A stretch of DNA of 64,000 nucleotides from Polaribacter sp. Hel_I_88 (GTDB lineage Bacteria > Bacteroidota > Bacteroidia > Flavobacteriales > Flavobacteriaceae), in contig NZ_JHZZ01000001.1 of the NCBI RefSeq assembly GCF_000687935.1, positions 2,626,001 through 2,690,000 on the forward strand. The letters are read 5' to 3'. A model generated the notes under the pieces. It had not been told where the DNA came from, ran no database searches, and was given only the letters and a program-made list of their open reading frames with translations. Each line of letters opens with the position of its first letter. The stretch's first letter is position 1. Shown one piece after another: positions 20,850 through 27,630 of this stretch. Position numbers and translations under genes: made by a program.

Positions 20850-23273
20850 TTATTTTGGGTCTAATATTTCTTTAATATTTGCCAAACAATCTCTGTAATG
20901 GTATTTTGTAATTCTATTAACACCTCTATTTTTTGCAATGGTTAATTGAAAATTTAACGCTTGTAATTCACCTCTAATTATTGAGCTGATATCAGAATTT
21001 TGAGTGTCTTTTGAATTTAAAAGCATTCCCATTCTGTTAATCATCGATTTTTGTAAATTACGTCTAAAAACATCTACATTTTTGTTGTAATTTGTTTCAG
21101 AAAAAATGCCAGTTCTTAAATCACGAATCATATCTAAAGCGCTGTAGGTATTAGCATCAATAACTTCTGCATCAATCATCATTTCTAATTTATTTGGATT
21201 TAGCAGTGTATACAATTGTCTGTTTTGTAAACTTAAAATTCTATCTGTATATCCATTTTCGTTGATGTTTGCTAAGATTTCTGGATTTATCAACCAATCT
21301 TGCGTTTCAAAAGCATTTTTTTGCAACCAAACCATGGCTTCTTTTTGTTTCTTTTTAGATACAGCTTCGTACACCATTCCATTTTGAACAGGTTTTTTGT
21401 TGAATTCATAAACGCCACCAATATTACCTGAAACATGCCCAACATATCTGCTCCAAACTCCTAAAAGTTCTCCATATAATTCAGATAAATCTTCATAATT
21501 ATTGGTTTGATCAGAAGTCCAACTTGGTAAATTTTCAGCAACAATTTTCAAGTTTTTCATTCCATAAGTTGATGCTTTTACTTGGTCGTTTCCAATTCCT
21601 TCAGTTTGTGCAGAAGGATCAAAACGTGCTCCACCAAATCTATAAATAGGATCATCAGCTTTTTCCTCAATCCATTTATCTAAAGTTTTAACTTCTTGTT
21701 CAGGCGTTTTTGCTGATGGAATTTTTCTGTAACCCCAGTTAATTGCATAATGATCATAAGGCCCTAATTGACGAATAAATCTTACATTTTCATCTCCTGG
21801 TTGTGCAATATAATTGTAACGTGCATAGTCCATAATAGTTGCTGCAATTCCCATTTTTTGAGTAAATTTTCCAGAGCGTAAAGAATCTACAGGATACGCA
21901 TAACTTGCAGCCATATTATGAGGCAAGCCAAGTGCATGACCAACTTCGTGCGAAATTACCATACGCATCATTTCACCAATTTCTTCAGCTGGTGTGTTTA
22001 AAGTTCTTGCAGACGGATTTGCTGCTCCAGTTTCTAATAAATATCTGTTTCTGTAAGAACGTAAATGATTGTGATACCAAATAATATCGCTCTCTAAAAT
22101 TTCTCCAGTTCTTGGATCAGAAACACTAGGTCCAGTTGCATTTCTTGTGGTACTTGCAACATATCTAATTGAAGAATAACGCACATCTTCCATACTAAAT
22201 TCTGGATCTTCTTCTTCAGTTGGTGGATATTTTGCCATAATTGCATTCTTAAAACCAGCAGTTTCAAAAACTTTTGCCCAATCATCAACACCTTGTTTAA
22301 TGTATTTTTTCAATTTATCTGGAGTTCCAGGATCTAAATAATATACAATTGGCTTTATAGGTTCTACCAATTCTCCACGATTATAAGCGTTGATATCTTT
22401 AGGTTCTAATCTCCAACGTCTAATATATCTTTTGTCATCTGCTTTTAACGCTTCAGAACTATAATCTACATTTCCAATCGAAAAATACCCCACTCTTTTA
22501 TCATACACTCTTGGCATCATTTTATCTTCTGGCAATACAATCATAGATTGATTTACACGAATTGTAATGGTATTTGTTGATGAGTTGCTTGGTGGTTCAG
22601 CAGCATCAAATGTAAAATCTTGCACGACTTCTATATTTTCTGGATAACTTTTTATAGAGTTGATAAAACTTCTTGACGCATCTAATCTCCTAACTTTATA
22701 CCTTTTTCTATACGAATCTGGTAAAGGAGAAATCGCTTGAATATCCGAAGTAAAAAACTTGGTAACATCCACCAAAACTGCTGTAGAATCTTGATTTTGA
22801 GTGGCAATATCAAACGCAAATAAAATAGGTTCTAAATTGTTTGCTTTTACAGATTTGTAAATTGGTAAAGAGTCGTTTGCAACAGCATCATACGATTTTA
22901 CTTTCAATAAAATTTTATCTTGAAACTCTTCCCAAACAACAACTTGTGTGTTTATTTTTGAGCCAGCATTTACATAACCACCACCTAAACCAGCAGGAAT
23001 GTCTTTAATTCTGGTAACCAGTAACATTTCTTTTCCAAAATGGGCTTTCGGAATTTCATACATGAATTTATTGTCTGTGTTGTGTACTTTAAATAAACCA
23101 TCATCTGTAGATGTTTTCTTGGTTACAAAATCAGCATATTTTGGTGTTTTGCTTTTTTGAGGTTTTGCTGCAGTTTCTTCTGAATTGTTTTTCTTTGATT
23201 TTTTTCTTTGTGCATTCATTTCTGTAGGAAATGTAAACGCTAAAATCAATGAGAAAAGTAGTAATTTTTTCAT
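20850..23273 (-). CDS. Secreted zinc-dependent metalloprotease (DUF5117/DUF4953 type)
   Basis: 807 residues from the ATG at 23273; a start 27 bases earlier is possible but would place extra residues before the signal peptide. The signal peptide is KKLLLFSLILAFTFPTEMNAQ. A long N-terminal domain with KVHNTDNKFMYEIPKAHFGKEMLLVTR is followed by the zinc motif HEVGHALGLPHN (HEVGH at residues 442-446) in the metzincin form HExxHxxGxxH. The downstream MDYARYNYIAQPGD segment supplies the Met-turn. It is probably periplasmic or surface exposed and digests proteins. It converges with the DUF2851 gene. Large homologues are abundant in marine flavobacteria. Confidence 0.9.
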   Translation of the reverse strand: MKKLLLFSLILAFTFPTEMNAQRKKSKKNNSEETAAKPQKSKTPKYADFVTKKTSTDDGLFKVHNTDNKFMYEIPKAHFGKEMLLVTRIKDIPAGLGGGYVNAGSKINTQVVVWEEFQDKILLKVKSYDAVANDSLPIYKSVKANNLEPILFAFDIATQNQDSTAVLVDVTKFFTSDIQAISPLPDSYRKRYKVRRLDASRSFINSIKSYPENIEVVQDFTFDAAEPPSNSSTNTITIRVNQSMIVLPEDKMMPRVYDKRVGYFSIGNVDYSSEALKADDKRYIRRWRLEPKDINAYNRGELVEPIKPIVYYLDPGTPDKLKKYIKQGVDDWAKVFETAGFKNAIMAKYPPTEEEDPEFSMEDVRYSSIRYVASTTRNATGPSVSDPRTGEILESDIIWYHNHLRSYRNRYLLETGAANPSARTLNTPAEEIGEMMRMVISHEVGHALGLPHNMAASYAYPVDSLRSGKFTQKMGIAATIMDYARYNYIAQPGDENVRFIRQLGPYDHYAINWGYRKIPSAKTPEQEVKTLDKWIEEKADDPIYRFGGARFDPSAQTEGIGNDQVKASTYGMKNLKIVAENLPSWTSDQTNNYEDLSELYGELLGVWSRYVGHVSGNIGGVYEFNKKPVQNGMVYEAVSKKKQKEAMVWLQKNAFETQDWLINPEILANINENGYTDRILSLQNRQLYTLLNPNKLEMMIDAEVIDANTYSALDMIRDLRTGIFSETNYNKNVDVFRRNLQKSMINRMGMLLNSKDTQNSDISSIIRGELQALNFQLTIAKNRGVNRITKYHYRDCLANIKEILDPK

Positions 23274-23438
23274 ATTGTGTTTAAGTTCTGAATTAAACAA
23301 CTAAAGTAATAAATTTTGAAATAGATTGGTTTGTAGAATGTGTTAAAAAAGTAAATGATATCTTTATGAGATAAATTTCTATATTAGTGTCAATTTTAAA
23401 ATCAGTAGCTTAAAACATCGGTTTTTGCAATTATTTTT

Positions 23439-24080
23439 ATGAATATAAAAACAAAATTATATAAAGAGCAATTAAAAGAATGGCCAGAAATGGGGCATCA
23501 TATAATGGCTCAGTTTGATGATGAAAAAGTAATTGTATATCAATCTTACAGACCAGAGATAGGAAATTTTGCTTTTCAGAATCAGTATTTTGGGGGTGCT
23601 TTTAGTGTACATAGAATGACTTGGATAAAACCAAATTTTCTTTGGATGATGTACAGAAATGGCTGGGGAACAAAAGTTGGACAAGAAATTGTTTTGGCAA
23701 TTCATTTAAAGCGAGAAGCTTTTGAACGTTATTTAAATCAAGCTGTTTATTCTAGTTTTCAAAATGATATTTATGGAAGTAAAGAAGAATGGCAAGCTGC
23801 TGTAAAAAACTCAAATATCAGATTGCAATGGGATCCAGATCACGATCCTTATGGAAATAAATTAGTTAGAAGAGCTATACAAATAGGAATAAGAAATCTA
23901 GAAATAGTAAAATATGCCAAAGAAGATATTTTAGAAATTGAAGACATCTCTGAGTTTGTAAAAGAACAACATCAATTTGTTTTAAATAACGAGTTGGATG
24001 CGTTATTAACCCCAATTGAAAAGCCTTTTATTCCAAGTAATAAGCAAACATTTAAATTGTTGAAATTAAGTGGTGAATAA
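23439..24080 (+). CDS. DUF4291 family protein
   Basis: 213 residues. The core IMAQFDDEKVIVYQSYRPEIGNFAF, followed by FSVHRMTWIKPNFLWMMYRNGWGTK (about 51-75), QEIVLAIHLKREAFE and LQWDPDHDPYG, matches DUF4291. The family has no assigned biochemical function and occurs in many bacteria and in fungi. It is a single gene between the metalloprotease start and the RAYT/REP region, with no operon partner. No signal peptide is present, so it is cytoplasmic. Confidence 0.85.
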   Translation: MNIKTKLYKEQLKEWPEMGHHIMAQFDDEKVIVYQSYRPEIGNFAFQNQYFGGAFSVHRMTWIKPNFLWMMYRNGWGTKVGQEIVLAIHLKREAFERYLNQAVYSSFQNDIYGSKEEWQAAVKNSNIRLQWDPDHDPYGNKLVRRAIQIGIRNLEIVKYAKEDILEIEDISEFVKEQHQFVLNNELDALLTPIEKPFIPSNKQTFKLLKLSGE

Positions 24081-24107
24081 TGTCTGTTATCCAAATTTCT
24101 TACCTCA

Positions 24108-24131
24108 GTTAGCGCGAGCATCTTGCTCGTG
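24108..24131. repeat. REP-like hairpin 1 (left of the RAYT gene)
   Basis: Reads GTTAGCGCGAGC with the stem CGAGCA/TGCTCG around a TCT loop. It lies 200 bases before the RAYT gene and is the inverse of the copies on the right side, so the gene is flanked by opposed REPs. Confidence 0.85.
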
Positions 24132-24331
24132 AACGAAAACAATTTCTTTATTTTGCAAATCAACAAAGTGTTATCATTTTTGAAAAAAGAAATCATTTTT
24201 TAATTAATTTTGGTTTTAATATTTTCAAGAATAAACAAACTACTATCAGTCGCGTCTTTGAATAACAAGAGGAAATAGGTTATTTTGGCTCATGAAATTG
24301 AAGGTTAATTCCTTATTTTTACTCAAAAAAA

Positions 24332-24880
24332 ATGAGTAGAAAATATAAATTTAGAGAAAAGTCAGGTGCTTATTTTATAAGTTTTGCCACTGTAAATTGG
24401 GTAGACGTATTTACAAGAGATTTATATTATACTTGTATTACTGAGTCTTTAGATTTCTGCAGAAAAAACAAAGGAATGGAAATTTATGGATATTGTATTA
24501 TGACAAATCATATTCACTTAATTTTCCGTTCTTCTTTGAATGATCCCTCAGGTTTGATAAGAGATTTTAAAGGTTTAACATCTAGAAAACTTTTGAAAAT
24601 GATAGAAGAAAACGCTCAAGAAAGTAGAAGAGAATGGATGTTATGGATGTTTGAAAGAGCAGGAAAAAAGAATAGTAATGTAACTAATAGGCAGTTTTGG
24701 CAACAGCATAATCATCCCATAGAAATATGGTCTTTAAAAGTTTTTGAACAAAAATTGAATTATATACATCAAAACCCTGTAAAAGCAGGTTTTGTTACAG
24801 ATCCAATAGATTGGAAATATAGTAGCGCCAGAAATTATGGAAATGATGACGCTACTATTTTGGAAATAGATTTAAATTAG
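24332..24880 (+). CDS. REP-associated tyrosine transposase (RAYT, Y1 HUH family)
   Basis: 182 residues. The single-strand HUH-type nuclease motif is YGYCIMTNHIHLIF, with metal ligands H60 and H62. The catalytic tyrosine is most likely Y144 in KLNYIHQNPVKAGF. It binds and cuts REP hairpins in single-stranded DNA. It is not an insertion sequence with its own ends: one REP lies to its left and four to its right, in the pattern GCGCGAGCA-loop-TGCTCGTGC. The N-terminus KFREKSGAYFISFATVNWVDVF is the usual RAYT start. The gene looks intact. Such genes persist as single-copy domesticated transposases. Confidence 0.93.
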   Translation: MSRKYKFREKSGAYFISFATVNWVDVFTRDLYYTCITESLDFCRKNKGMEIYGYCIMTNHIHLIFRSSLNDPSGLIRDFKGLTSRKLLKMIEENAQESRREWMLWMFERAGKKNSNVTNRQFWQQHNHPIEIWSLKVFEQKLNYIHQNPVKAGFVTDPIDWKYSSARNYGNDDATILEIDLN

Positions 24881-24886
24881 ATTAAA

Positions 24887-24911
24887 GCACGAGCAAGATG
24901 CTTGCGCTAAC
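24887..24911. repeat. REP-like hairpin 2
   Basis: Reads GCACGAGCAAGATGCTTGCGCTAAC, 6 bases after the RAYT stop. It is the reverse complement of REP 1 apart from one base: the stem has a G-T pair (TTG in place of TCG). Confidence 0.85.
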
Positions 24912-24931
24912 TTGATTTGAATTATATTAAA

Positions 24932-24956
24932 GCATGAGTAAGATCTTTATGCTAAG
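24932..24956. repeat. REP-like hairpin 3, degenerate
   Basis: Reads GCATGAGTAAGATCTTTATGCTAAG, aligning over its whole length with REP 2 but carrying several changes. Its stem is much weakened, so it looks like a decaying copy. Confidence 0.7.
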
Positions 24957-24981
24957 TTGATTTTACTGTTATTTAATATTC

Positions 24982-25006
24982 GTTAGCGCGAGTTTCAAAC
25001 TCGTGC
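24982..25006. repeat. REP-like hairpin 4, inverted, with altered stem
   Basis: Reads GTTAGCGCGAGTTTCAAACTCGTGC. The flanks match REP 1 but the stem is CGAGTTT/AAACTCG instead of CGAGCA/TGCTCG, so both arms have changed together while pairing is kept. Confidence 0.85.
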
Positions 25007-25057
25007 CAATAAAGTTTGGAAAGTATTTTTTAGCACAAATTTTTAAGTTAATTTTAG

Positions 25058-25082
25058 GCACGAGCAAGATGCTCGCGCTAAC
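25058..25082. repeat. REP-like hairpin 5
   Basis: Reads GCACGAGCAAGATGCTCGCGCTAAC, the exact reverse complement of REP 1's core. With REP 4 it forms an opposed pair about 50 bases apart, like a bacterial interspersed mosaic element. Confidence 0.85.
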
Positions 25083-25129
25083 TTTGGAATGAATTAACTG
25101 TTCAATAACTTTTATAAAAATGTATAAAA

Positions 25130-25157
25130 AAATCCCAATCAAATTTGATTGGGATTT
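25130..25157 (-). terminator. Rho-independent terminator of the E1 dehydrogenase gene
   Basis: A perfect 28-base palindrome, AAATCCCAATCAAA and its complement, lies 20 bases after the stop on the minus strand and is followed by a run of T on that strand. It separates the dehydrogenase transcript from the REP region. Confidence 0.85.
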
Positions 25158-25176
25158 CAGTTTTATATCAAAAGTA

Positions 25177-27630
25177 TTAATACAAACTCTTAAATTTCTG
25201 TGGATTGAATTCATGCATAATTCCATAAACTTTTTCAAAAATGTCTTCTGCAGAAGGTTTTGAGAAATAATCACCATCAGTTCCGTAAGCAGTTCTGTGA
25301 GATTTTGCTGTTAGAGTAGAGGGTTTACTGTCTAAATATTCATAGCCATTTTGATTTTCCAAAATCTCTTGTAAAAGATACGCAGAAGCGCCTCCAGGAA
25401 CATCTTCATCAACCACTAATAATTTATTTGTTTTCATGACACTTTTTACACAATCGTGATTTGAATCAAATGGTAATAAACTTTGTGCATCAATAATTTC
25501 TACATCAATACCAACTTGCAATAAATCCTTTGCTGCTTCTTCTACAATTCTTAAGGTAGAACCGTAAGAAACAATAGTAATGTCAGTTCCTTCTTTGATG
25601 GTTTCAACAACACCAATTGGCGTTTTATATTCGCCTAAATTGGTTGGTAATTCTTCCTTTAATCTATAACCATTTAAACATTCTATCACTAAACCAGGAT
25701 CGTCACCTTCTAAAAGTGTGTTGTAAAAACCTGCAGCTTTGGTCATATTTCTTGGCACTAAAACATGGATTCCTCGCAAGTTATTGATAATGCCACCCAT
25801 AGGTGAACCTGCATGCCAAATACCTTCTAATCTATGTCCACGAGTTCTGATAATTAACGGCGCTTTCTGTTTTCCAAAAGTTCGGTAACGTAAAGTAGCT
25901 AAATCATCACTCATAATTTGAAGCGCGTACAACAAATAATCTAAATATTGTATTTCTGCAATGGGTCTTAAACCTCTCATTGCCATTCCAATTCCTTGCC
26001 CTAAAATGGTTGCTTCTCTAATTCCAGTGTCAAAGATTCTAATATCTCCAAATTTTTCTTGCAATCCTTCCAAACCTTGGTTTACATCCCCAATAAAACC
26101 AGCATCTTCACCAAAAATTAATACATCTTTATGTTTGTTTAAAATGGCATCAAAATTATCTCTCATGATGATTCTTGCATCTACCATGTTTTTTTCTTGA
26201 GCGTATGTTGGTTTTTTCTCTAAAACTTTTGATGTACTTAAAGCAGTTTCACTTAATAAATGTGTAGAATACCTATTTTGCGCATTCTTTTGTGTAGATT
26301 TTATAAAATTTTGAAGTTCAATTTTTTCGCTAAATTCTTCGTCCTTTAAATACCATAAACATTTTTTTACAGTTGATAAAACGTCTTTTCTTGTAGGTTC
26401 TGAAATAGTGCTTAAATCGTTGGTGTATTTATTGATAAAATTCTCATTTTTACTTTTTACAGCAACTCTTTTTAATAAATCAGTAGCTTTAATAAGTTCT
26501 GATTTTATTTCATTTAAAAAAGCATTCCAAGCATTTCTTTTTGCGTTGGTAACTTCTTTTTTAGCTTCTCTATCAATGGCTATTAAATCTTCTTCACCAT
26601 CAACAAAACGTAAAATATCTCCATTTTCTGTTTCTAGTTCAAATTCTAAAATCCATTCTCTAAATTTAGTAATACAATCGTGGTCTTTTTCCCACTGTAA
26701 ACGCTCTTTATCTTTATAACGTTCATGAGAACCAGAAGTTGAATGTCCTTGTGGTTGTGTTAATTCTTTAACGTGAATTAAAACTGGTACATGTTCTTCT
26801 CTTGCAATTTTAGCTGCTTTTTGATAAACGTCCATTAACTGCACGTAATCCCAACCGTTAATTACAAAAATTTCGTACCCTTTATTTTTTTCATCTCTTT
26901 GAAAACCTTTTAAAATTTCGGAAATACTTTCTTTTGTAGTTTGATGTTTTGCGTGTACAGAAATTCCATATTCATCATCCCAAACACTCATTACCATGGG
27001 TACTTGTAAAACACCAGCTGCATTTATGGTTTCAAAAAACAGACCTTCACTTGTACTTGCGTTTCCAATGGTTCCCCAAGCAACTTCGTTTCCTTTGTTA
27101 GAAAATTTGTTTTTACCTTGAACACTTTTTTCGTTTCTGTAAACTTTAGATGCTTGTGCCAAACCTAATAAACGTGGCATTTGACCAGCAGTTGGTGAAA
27201 TATCTGAACTAGAATTGTATTGCTTTGTTAAATCTTTCCAGCTTCCATCATCATGTAAACTGTGTGTTGCAAAATGCCCACCCATTTGCCTACCTGCAGA
27301 CATTGGGTCTGCATCAATATCTGTATGTGCATATAAACCTGCAAAAAATTGCTGTGCAGTAAGCTCGCCAATCGCCATCATAAAAGTTTGATCTCTGTAA
27401 TAACCAGATCTAAAATCACCTTTATTAAAAGCTTTTGCCCAAGCTAATTGAGGAACTTCTTTTCCATCACCAAAAATACCAAACTTAGCTTTTCCAGTAA
27501 GTACTTCTCGTCTTCCAAGTAAACTACATTCTCTACTAATTCTAGCAATTCTATAATCACTTAAAACTTCTTTTTTAAAATCGTTAAAAGTAATTTCTTG
27601 CTTATTTAAAGGAATTGTTTTTTGCAACAT
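25177..27630 (-). CDS. Fused 2-oxoacid dehydrogenase E1 (alpha plus beta), branched-chain type
   Basis: 817 residues that join both E1 chains in one protein, usual in Bacteroidota. The alpha half (1 to about 390) holds SGYYRDQTFMMAIGE, MGGHFATHSL and the thiamine diphosphate motif with GTIGNASTSEGLFFETINAA. The beta half (about 475 to 817) has NFDAILNKHKDVLIFGEDAGFIGDVNQG, ARYRTFGKQ-like and the transketolase C-terminal ending with LDSKPSTLTAKSHRTAYGTDGDYFSKP. It decarboxylates 2-oxoacids and passes the acyl group to a lipoyl E2, probably in branched-chain amino acid breakdown. E2 and E3 are not in the window. Flanked by its own promoter and terminator, so it is monocistronic. Confidence 0.88.
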   Translation of the reverse strand: MLQKTIPLNKQEITFNDFKKEVLSDYRIARISRECSLLGRREVLTGKAKFGIFGDGKEVPQLAWAKAFNKGDFRSGYYRDQTFMMAIGELTAQQFFAGLYAHTDIDADPMSAGRQMGGHFATHSLHDDGSWKDLTKQYNSSSDISPTAGQMPRLLGLAQASKVYRNEKSVQGKNKFSNKGNEVAWGTIGNASTSEGLFFETINAAGVLQVPMVMSVWDDEYGISVHAKHQTTKESISEILKGFQRDEKNKGYEIFVINGWDYVQLMDVYQKAAKIAREEHVPVLIHVKELTQPQGHSTSGSHERYKDKERLQWEKDHDCITKFREWILEFELETENGDILRFVDGEEDLIAIDREAKKEVTNAKRNAWNAFLNEIKSELIKATDLLKRVAVKSKNENFINKYTNDLSTISEPTRKDVLSTVKKCLWYLKDEEFSEKIELQNFIKSTQKNAQNRYSTHLLSETALSTSKVLEKKPTYAQEKNMVDARIIMRDNFDAILNKHKDVLIFGEDAGFIGDVNQGLEGLQEKFGDIRIFDTGIREATILGQGIGMAMRGLRPIAEIQYLDYLLYALQIMSDDLATLRYRTFGKQKAPLIIRTRGHRLEGIWHAGSPMGGIINNLRGIHVLVPRNMTKAAGFYNTLLEGDDPGLVIECLNGYRLKEELPTNLGEYKTPIGVVETIKEGTDITIVSYGSTLRIVEEAAKDLLQVGIDVEIIDAQSLLPFDSNHDCVKSVMKTNKLLVVDEDVPGGASAYLLQEILENQNGYEYLDSKPSTLTAKSHRTAYGTDGDYFSKPSAEDIFEKVYGIMHEFNPQKFKSLY

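Follow-up and report, generated by a model that had tools for sequence, protein, structure and literature searches.

Organization of the RAYT locus

The locus lies in a stretch of 64,000 nucleotides from Polaribacter sp. Hel_I_88 (NZ_JHZZ01000001.1, positions 2,626,001 to 2,690,000), referred to as the window herein, and local coordinates are counted from its first letter. An intact RAYT (TnpA-REP) gene has one REP hairpin to its left and four to its right, in exactly the positions and orientations given in the preliminary description. The features are as follows.

23439-24080, + strand: DUF4291 gene, 213 aa, upstream neighbour of the RAYT gene and co-directional with it
24108-24911, + strand: REP-RAYT-REP stretch corresponding to the discrete unit of relatives, whose data define the unit ends
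24108-24132, + strand: REP at the left end, upstream of the gene; its foot GTTA points outward and its tail is GTGAACG
24332-24880, + strand: RAYT (TnpA-REP) gene, 182 aa, intact frame, motifs NHIH, WQ and YIHQNP
24887-24911, - strand: downstream (right-end) REP, foot outward, one arm mismatch (AAGCA/TGCTC)
24932-24956, - strand: decayed REP, DNA fold -2.2 kcal/mol
24982-25006, + strand: REP whose stem GAGTT/AACTC has covaried; it forms the left half of an inverted pair resembling a REPIN
25058-25082, - strand: REP that completes the REPIN-like pair 24982-25082 on the right

REP 24108 begins 28 bp past the DUF4291 stop, and REP 24887 begins 6 bp past the RAYT stop. The tail GTGAACG of the former also occurs in 17 of 79 upstream REPs among relatives. 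Four good REPs (24108, 24887, 24982 and 25058) fold as DNA at -4.4 to -9.2 kcal/mol on the REP strand, and together they match the sister species G009 in 106 of 112 columns, compared with 254 of 339 for the spacers. Individually, 28 of 28 columns are identical for REP 24982, 27 of 28 for REP 24887 and 26 of 28 for REP 25058. REP 24932 is decayed and has no counterpart in G009 (11 of 28 aligned columns alike), so the five hairpins originally counted amount to four and one remnant, which is probably a local duplicate of REP 24887 that has since decayed. The covaried stem noted earlier in REP 24982 is real: relative to the other REPs, two neighbouring pairs have changed, p8 from C-G to T-A and p9 from A-T to T-A, and both changes are compensated.

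Rfam returned only two weak chance matches at 23000-26000 of the window and nothing at gathering score on the relatives' loci L122 and L126, and neither the RAYT nor the DUF4291 protein had a match in PADLOC.

Family of the RAYT and selection on it

The identification as a RAYT holds on several lines of evidence. The protein scores 100.6 bits against the NCBIfam model REP_Tyr_transpos (cut-off 80) and 38.1 against Pfam Y1_Tnp (cut-off 23), and residues H60, H62, Y144, N148 and P149 are invariant across 35 relatives. A profile search matched E. coli TnpA-REP (4er8) at E 1.1e-5. The predicted fold (mean pLDDT 75.7, pTM 0.76) has the same entry, TnpA-REP on a REP, as its best solved match (E 4.7e-8, TM 0.63/0.68), followed by IS200/IS605 structures.

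By its sequence signature, we file the protein in TnpA-Y1 subclass 2.6, which is RAYT group 5, a name that reportedly comes from Bertels in 2017. The signature NHIH, FWQQ and YIHQNP agrees with that listed for this subclass in Table 1 of PMC6006769, and both the host phylum and the flanking atypical hairpins fit. The preliminary description had held that RAYT/REP systems are mostly described in Proteobacteria, which made a flavobacterial one worth following. Novelty on account of the phylum is not supported, since subclass 2.6, or group 5, is a Bacteroidetes group with "atypical" hairpins described previously (Quentin 2018, PMC6006769, in the parts drawn on here).

The RAYT gene is under purifying selection in the lineage of Polaribacter sp. 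Hel_I_88 and G009, with a dN/dS of 0.054 between the two (9 nonsynonymous and 29 synonymous differences). It is single copy in its own genome (E 0.001), and G009 has the same locus, with both the RAYT and the DUF4291 gene. In a protein tree of 91 of the 108 rows, from which broken or partial proteins were left out, Polaribacter RAYTs fall in at least two places, with mostly weak support. A search of phages for relatives gave no match at E 1e-10, and a search of plasmids gave three records at 44-51% identity.

A common hairpin frame with fixed and free pairs

The REPs of the window and of its relatives fit a common 21-nt frame. A REP has an unpaired foot and a 9-bp stem, and its 3-nt loop nearly always begins with T. 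The foot reads G[C/T]T[A/C/G] across relatives, as GTTA in the window and mostly as GCTA or GCTG elsewhere; the tetranucleotide GT[AG]G does not stand at the foot of the window REPs. We collected 108 RAYT loci, 79 from genome contigs and the remainder from the genus Polaribacter, and picked REP sites by the frame bases alone, namely the foot, the first four stem bases and the last three. REP hairpins lay less than 1 kb from the RAYT gene in 102 of the 108 loci, our own included. A stricter pattern left 16 of 109 loci without a REP, and a looser last base left 6 of 108. Within 1 kb of RAYT genes (207,088 bp), 294 sites were found, and 280 of these formed at least four of the five arm pairs that played no part in their selection, whereas shuffled flanks (50 passes) gave 0.88 sites and 0.02 paired sites per pass. 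Farther from RAYT genes, 376,573 bp held 35 sites, 30 of them paired.

Aligning the stems, a check already proposed for this locus, bore out selection for the fold. The alignment (A1) held 201 of 207 sites, 126 of them distinct and all with at least four of five arm pairs. Among the 126 distinct sequences we counted 162 double-change cells, compared with 31.1 ± 4.6 after shuffling and 6 to 37 after sliding, and 98.7% of cells pair versus 80.8%. One of five measures, the number of further pair types, showed no excess (16 versus 15.3 shuffled).

As a check with different selection rules, hairpins were chosen by the foot and six Watson-Crick pairs, leaving p1-p3 free. Among the resulting 289 hairpins, the p3/p19 pair was G.T in 272, p4/p18 was C-G in 283, p7/p15 was G-C in 284, and the first loop base was T in 284. 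To judge from these sequences, selection acts on the REP fold and, in addition, on part of the stem bases, the stem having fixed as well as free pairs; the earlier statement that it does not act on the stem bases is not supported. The stem type of REP 24982 is one of many among relatives. On the opposite strand the wobble becomes a C.A mismatch and the foot is missing, so the wobble tells the two strands apart. The G.T wobble, the fixed C-G and G-C pairs, the loop T and the free covarying pairs together make a simple hairpin code that could be assayed base by base. While the subclass itself had been described, the common REP frame with its G.T wobble is newly defined here.

REPs in the Polaribacter sp. 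Hel_I_88 genome and in the genus

A strict REP pattern matched three times in the window and in none of 100 shuffles. In the whole 3,996,527-bp genome, which is closed and a single contig, it also matched three times, always at the RAYT locus, and the reversed control gave no match. The looser frame gave 32 matches, 8 with at least four of five arm pairs; of these eight, three lie at the RAYT locus, two are of stem type TCGTT/AACGA and three lack the fixed G-C pair. A REP covariance model found six matches at E 0.01. Away from the locus, the genome thus holds no REP of the RAYT-locus stem type, and without dispersed REPs of that type it gives no sign of activity. The preliminary description had reasoned that a lack of further copies in the genome, together with a lack of relatives of the same arrangement, would mean a local duplication. 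The former is what we found for intact REPs of the locus type; as for the latter, relatives share the arrangement, and their hundreds of hairpins exclude mere local duplication.

The two TCGTT/AACGA hairpins are lone REPs at genome positions 464871 and 2869434 (L176 and L177), in convergent spacers with no RAYT gene beside them. The same stem type adjoins the RAYT gene of another branch in G119, and the lone REPs are probably remains of a lost RAYT. At genome position 3438155 there is also a CGTCATTGCGAGG-like palindrome, which we take to resemble CGTC-tagged REPs.

Across 146 Polaribacter genomes, 39 have a RAYT gene (E 1e-10) and 56 have a REP by the covariance model. The two go together, with a REP in 33 of the 39 genomes with a RAYT gene and in 23 of the 107 without (odds ratio 20, Fisher p 4e-12, uncorrected for kinship and with a model, R1, whose training set included REPs from these RAYT-bearing genomes). 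Cognate REPs are dispersed in the genomes of some relatives. REP arrays with regular spacings occur as well, at about 145 bp in L185 (G119), about 118 bp in L186 (G008) and 220-440 bp in L184 (G034); no RAYT gene was found anywhere in the G008 genome.

REP-RAYT-REP as a discrete unit in relatives

The orientation of REPs around RAYT genes is regular. We took 99 loci flanked by 300 bp or more on each side. Among them, the closest REP upstream of the gene pointed outward (+) in 79, inward in 9 and was absent in 11, and 75 of the 79 outward REPs lay within 250 bp of the RAYT gene. The nearest downstream REP pointed outward (-) in 74, inward in 7 and was absent in 18, with 71 of the 74 within 60 bp. 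RAYT genes are bracketed at less than 250 bp upstream and less than 60 bp downstream in 61 of the 99 loci. The window fits this pattern, with REP 24108 (+) upstream and REP 24887 (-) downstream of the gene.

In relatives, this unit measures about 650 bp. When a 3.7-kb stretch of F. anhuiense was used as query, the matches in the closest Flavobacterium genomes ran from query position 933-936 to 1592, which are the REP feet. Two to four copies of the unit were found in 7 of 16 Flavobacterium genomes, some with broken frames, and flank searches of 16 and of 150 Flavobacterium genomes recovered the unit but hardly its flanks.

We examined the ends in 66 units for which both REPs and flanking sequence were available. 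Among them, 62 pairs were at least 90% alike, drawn from 30 units at 25 loci. The left end of homology fell within 10 bp of the foot in 56 of these pairs, the right end did so in 54 and both ends in 48; for pairs within one genome, both ends did so in 5 of 5. At a threshold of 80% (559 pairs), homology extended beyond the foot by more than 40 bp in only seven pairs on the left and three on the right, and left-side homology often halted inside the unit (345 of 559). The bases just outside the feet are biased, with C at 59-71% in positions -5 to -1 on the left and G at 53-74% in positions +1 to +5 on the right. Shortened units that keep both ends also occur. G077 has two 352-bp repeats retaining RAYT codons 1-27 and 153-182, and G271 and G261 have four shortened units and one, respectively.

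For 26 pairs of RAYT genes at least 92% alike, both outer flanks are common in 11, one in 10 and none in 5. At 85%, 163 of 206 pairs have no common flank, a figure to be read with the loss of flanks with distance in DNA comparison. G056 and G013 have identical copies of the RAYT gene, which were considered as cases of transposition and rejected, since they sit inside identical repeats of more than 4 kb and show nothing about the RAYT itself. These repeats (L122-L129) are near-identical, with four in each genome; in G013, three lie 7312 bp apart.

At L218-L222 (Flavobacterium tistrianum, quisquiliarum, phragmitis, soyae and Root186), small variable genes, a few of them SUKH-like (weakly, E 2e-4), take turns with RAYT units, and the whole series stands ahead of genes for a leucine-rich-repeat protein. 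These loci have the look of toxin-immunity arrays whose genes are separated by RAYT units. An Rhs-core-like tail (E 3e-5, under the cut-off) lies near L228.

Empty sites and neighbouring genes

Related genomes without the unit show what its place looks like when it is absent. At the position of the window locus, the metalloprotease and dehydrogenase genes are adjacent, with neither DUF4291 nor RAYT between them, in 6 of 18 genus loci, and G099 has a different RAYT (62% alike) there. The DUF4291 gene itself is found in 9 of 58 genus genomes, our own counted. A second Polaribacter locus has a RAYT gene in common in G040, G077, G037 and G034; of nine genomes with no RAYT gene at this locus, seven have less than 60 bp between the genes, G106 has a lone REP and G050 has 197 bp. 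At a Flavobacterium locus, the anchors are 35 bp (G336) and 33 bp (G370) apart, compared with 929 bp in L034. Where relatives have a whole unit, G430 has a single two-footed hairpin, and G359 has half a left REP together with another gene. Four RAYT-bearing species at this locus (L034, L036, L041 and L047) differ in the gene before the unit. Since the empty sites of the window and of the Flavobacterium locus lack the neighbour gene too, they are not exact to the REP feet. A search with the joined flanks of 79 units for a nucleotide-exact empty site gave no clean case, the 13 alignments from three units being gapped.

Neighbouring genes were surveyed in 76 units flanked by 700 bp or more on each side, taking the nearest ORF of at least 80 aa from a simple caller. 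The nearest upstream ORF was co-directional with the RAYT gene in 63 units, opposed in 8 and absent in 5; downstream, 46 were co-directional, 21 were opposed and 9 had none. A scan of 56 proteins encoded before the unit revealed no functional theme, the commonest families having two members each.

Interpretation

We consider it likely that the locus is a REP-RAYT-REP unit of subclass 2.6 that is discrete in relatives and has been kept without spreading in Polaribacter. The RAYT would be a Y1-HUH single-strand nuclease whose substrates are REPs folded from one strand only, and by analogy with the TnpA-REP enzymes of E. coli and S. maltophilia it may bind and cleave at the foot. In Flavobacteriaceae, the unit (the gene and one REP on each side, feet outward) would be gained, lost and copied locally, would come to lie behind the 3' end of a gene read in the same direction, and would leave as remains shortened units that keep both ends, pairs resembling REPINs and lone hairpins with two feet. 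In Polaribacter, it may have entered between the metalloprotease gene and the pyruvate-dehydrogenase-type gene, with or beside DUF4291, when the lineage had not yet parted from that of G009. It would then have made a few REP copies locally, after which purifying selection would keep the RAYT gene with no spread of its REPs. The anatomy, the family, the covariation, the sharp unit ends in relatives and the absence from related genomes are seen directly; the action of the enzyme, self-movement of the unit and the reason for its retention we infer rather than observe.

A bolder version is possible, and we put it forward tentatively. Here, subclass 2.6 would not be domesticated at all, and REP-RAYT-REP would be an autonomous mobile element of Flavobacteriia that inserts, perhaps with the preceding gene, after the 3' ends of co-directional genes and decays into REPINs, shortened units and two-footed REPs. 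The ends of IS608 are read on one strand, and since the terminal hairpins here are inverted, excision of a single strand as in IS608 would not be available to such an element. Against autonomous movement stand the region that most of the closest RAYT copies share, the failure to find an empty site exact to the nucleotide, the loss of the neighbour gene from the empty sites as well, and the long repeats that carry the identical copies of G056 and G013; the sharp ends could also come from exchange of neighbours at REPs.

It is rather doubtful, in our assessment, that the RAYT is truly domesticated, that is, resident, housekeeping-like and vertically inherited with REPs of use to the host, in which case neighbour exchange at REPs would account for the sharp ends seen in relatives. 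The preliminary description had called the gene domesticated, and its single copy and purifying selection here agree with that, as do the locus shared with G009, the locus common to four other Polaribacter genomes, the region shared by most of the closest RAYT pairs and a published account that describes RAYTs as single-copy and vertical (a 2021 paper, PMC8049555). What the term does not cover is the relatives, with two to four copies in 7 of 16 Flavobacterium genomes and units ending at the feet in all five within-genome pairs. The patchy presence in 39 of 146 genus genomes also argues against it, as do, with their mostly weak support, the two or more places of Polaribacter in the tree. We place mobility above pure domestication, but well short of proof.

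An unlikely alternative is a gene cassette, in which the unit and the small co-directional gene ahead of it travel or recombine as one and different genes are delivered to one site. This would suit the co-directional upstream neighbour in 63 of the 71 units that have one, the Flavobacterium site where four RAYT-bearing species have different preceding genes and a fifth species shows yet another gene beside half of a left REP, and the joint absence of DUF4291 and RAYT from 6 of 18 genus loci. However, the far side of the neighbour gene has no REP, 11 DUF4291 loci elsewhere have none within the stretch examined, the neighbours share no functional theme, and insertion after gene ends would look alike.

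We regard an ordinary IS200/IS605 insertion sequence as very improbable and already disfavoured. Its Y1_Tnp fold, hairpin-bounded unit and IS200/IS605 structures as next fold matches are outweighed by a score of 28.7 bits against NF033573 transpos_IS200, below the cut-off of 55 and against 100.6 for the RAYT model, by a YxxxNP motif in place of the YxxxQ of subclass 1.1 TnpA, and by the mutual inversion of the two end hairpins. That the hairpins are merely transcription terminators of the upstream gene adjoining a transposase is scarcely credible, for although they sit after gene ends, no T run follows them, separate terminators lie beside the REPs of the window (25130-25157), the foot and wobble are strand-specific, and the hairpins stand in both orientations.

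In Polaribacter sp. Hel_I_88 the gene sits quietly at one place, but in related flavobacteria the sharp-ended unit keeps turning up next to different neighbours, so the subclass 2.6 branch may be less tame than the usual picture of RAYTs has it. Among domesticated transposases of bacteria, RAYTs are the standard example, and a branch whose units have sharp bounds and exist in several recent copies would offer a system where movement could be caught.

Comparison with known systems

Our literature search found no paper joining RAYT or REP with Flavobacterium. The REPtrons of E. coli (group 2) and of S. maltophilia and Marinomonas (group 3) likewise have a REP-flanked RAYT and strand-specific recognition, and the first loop base that is critical in group 3 (Sm G13, Mb T13) parallels the fixed T here (PMC8266576, in the sections drawn on). 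By the same sections, the REPtron foot is GTAG, in contrast to G[C/T]T[A/C/G] here, and the E. coli REP has a bulge, whereas the REPs here have a single wobble. The window also differs from REPtrons in that its REPs are not dispersed. Similarly, 24982-25082 resembles a REPIN in being an inverted REP pair with feet outward, but it has no dispersed population in its own genome.

TIRtrons, with their TIRYTs, also place a transposase gene between inverted ends (PMC3733652). Their ends read GGGGWSAS, of which the C-rich and G-rich outermost bases of the relatives are a faint echo, yet the ends here are REP hairpins; moreover, TIRYTs are mostly subclass 2.1 (PMC6006769, in part).

The likeness to subclass 2.6 itself lies in the NH[LIV]H, WQ and YIH[QN]NP motifs, a length near 179, Bacteroidetes hosts and hairpins without GT[AG]G. 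Its account in PMC6006769, as far as the parts drawn on here go, gives no shared hairpin motif, whereas we find a common 21-nt frame with a G.T wobble, as well as relatives with sharp unit ends and several copies. Lastly, the two-footed hairpin that replaces a whole unit in G430 resembles the double-foot REPs of those same parts of PMC6006769, where such a replacement is suggested.
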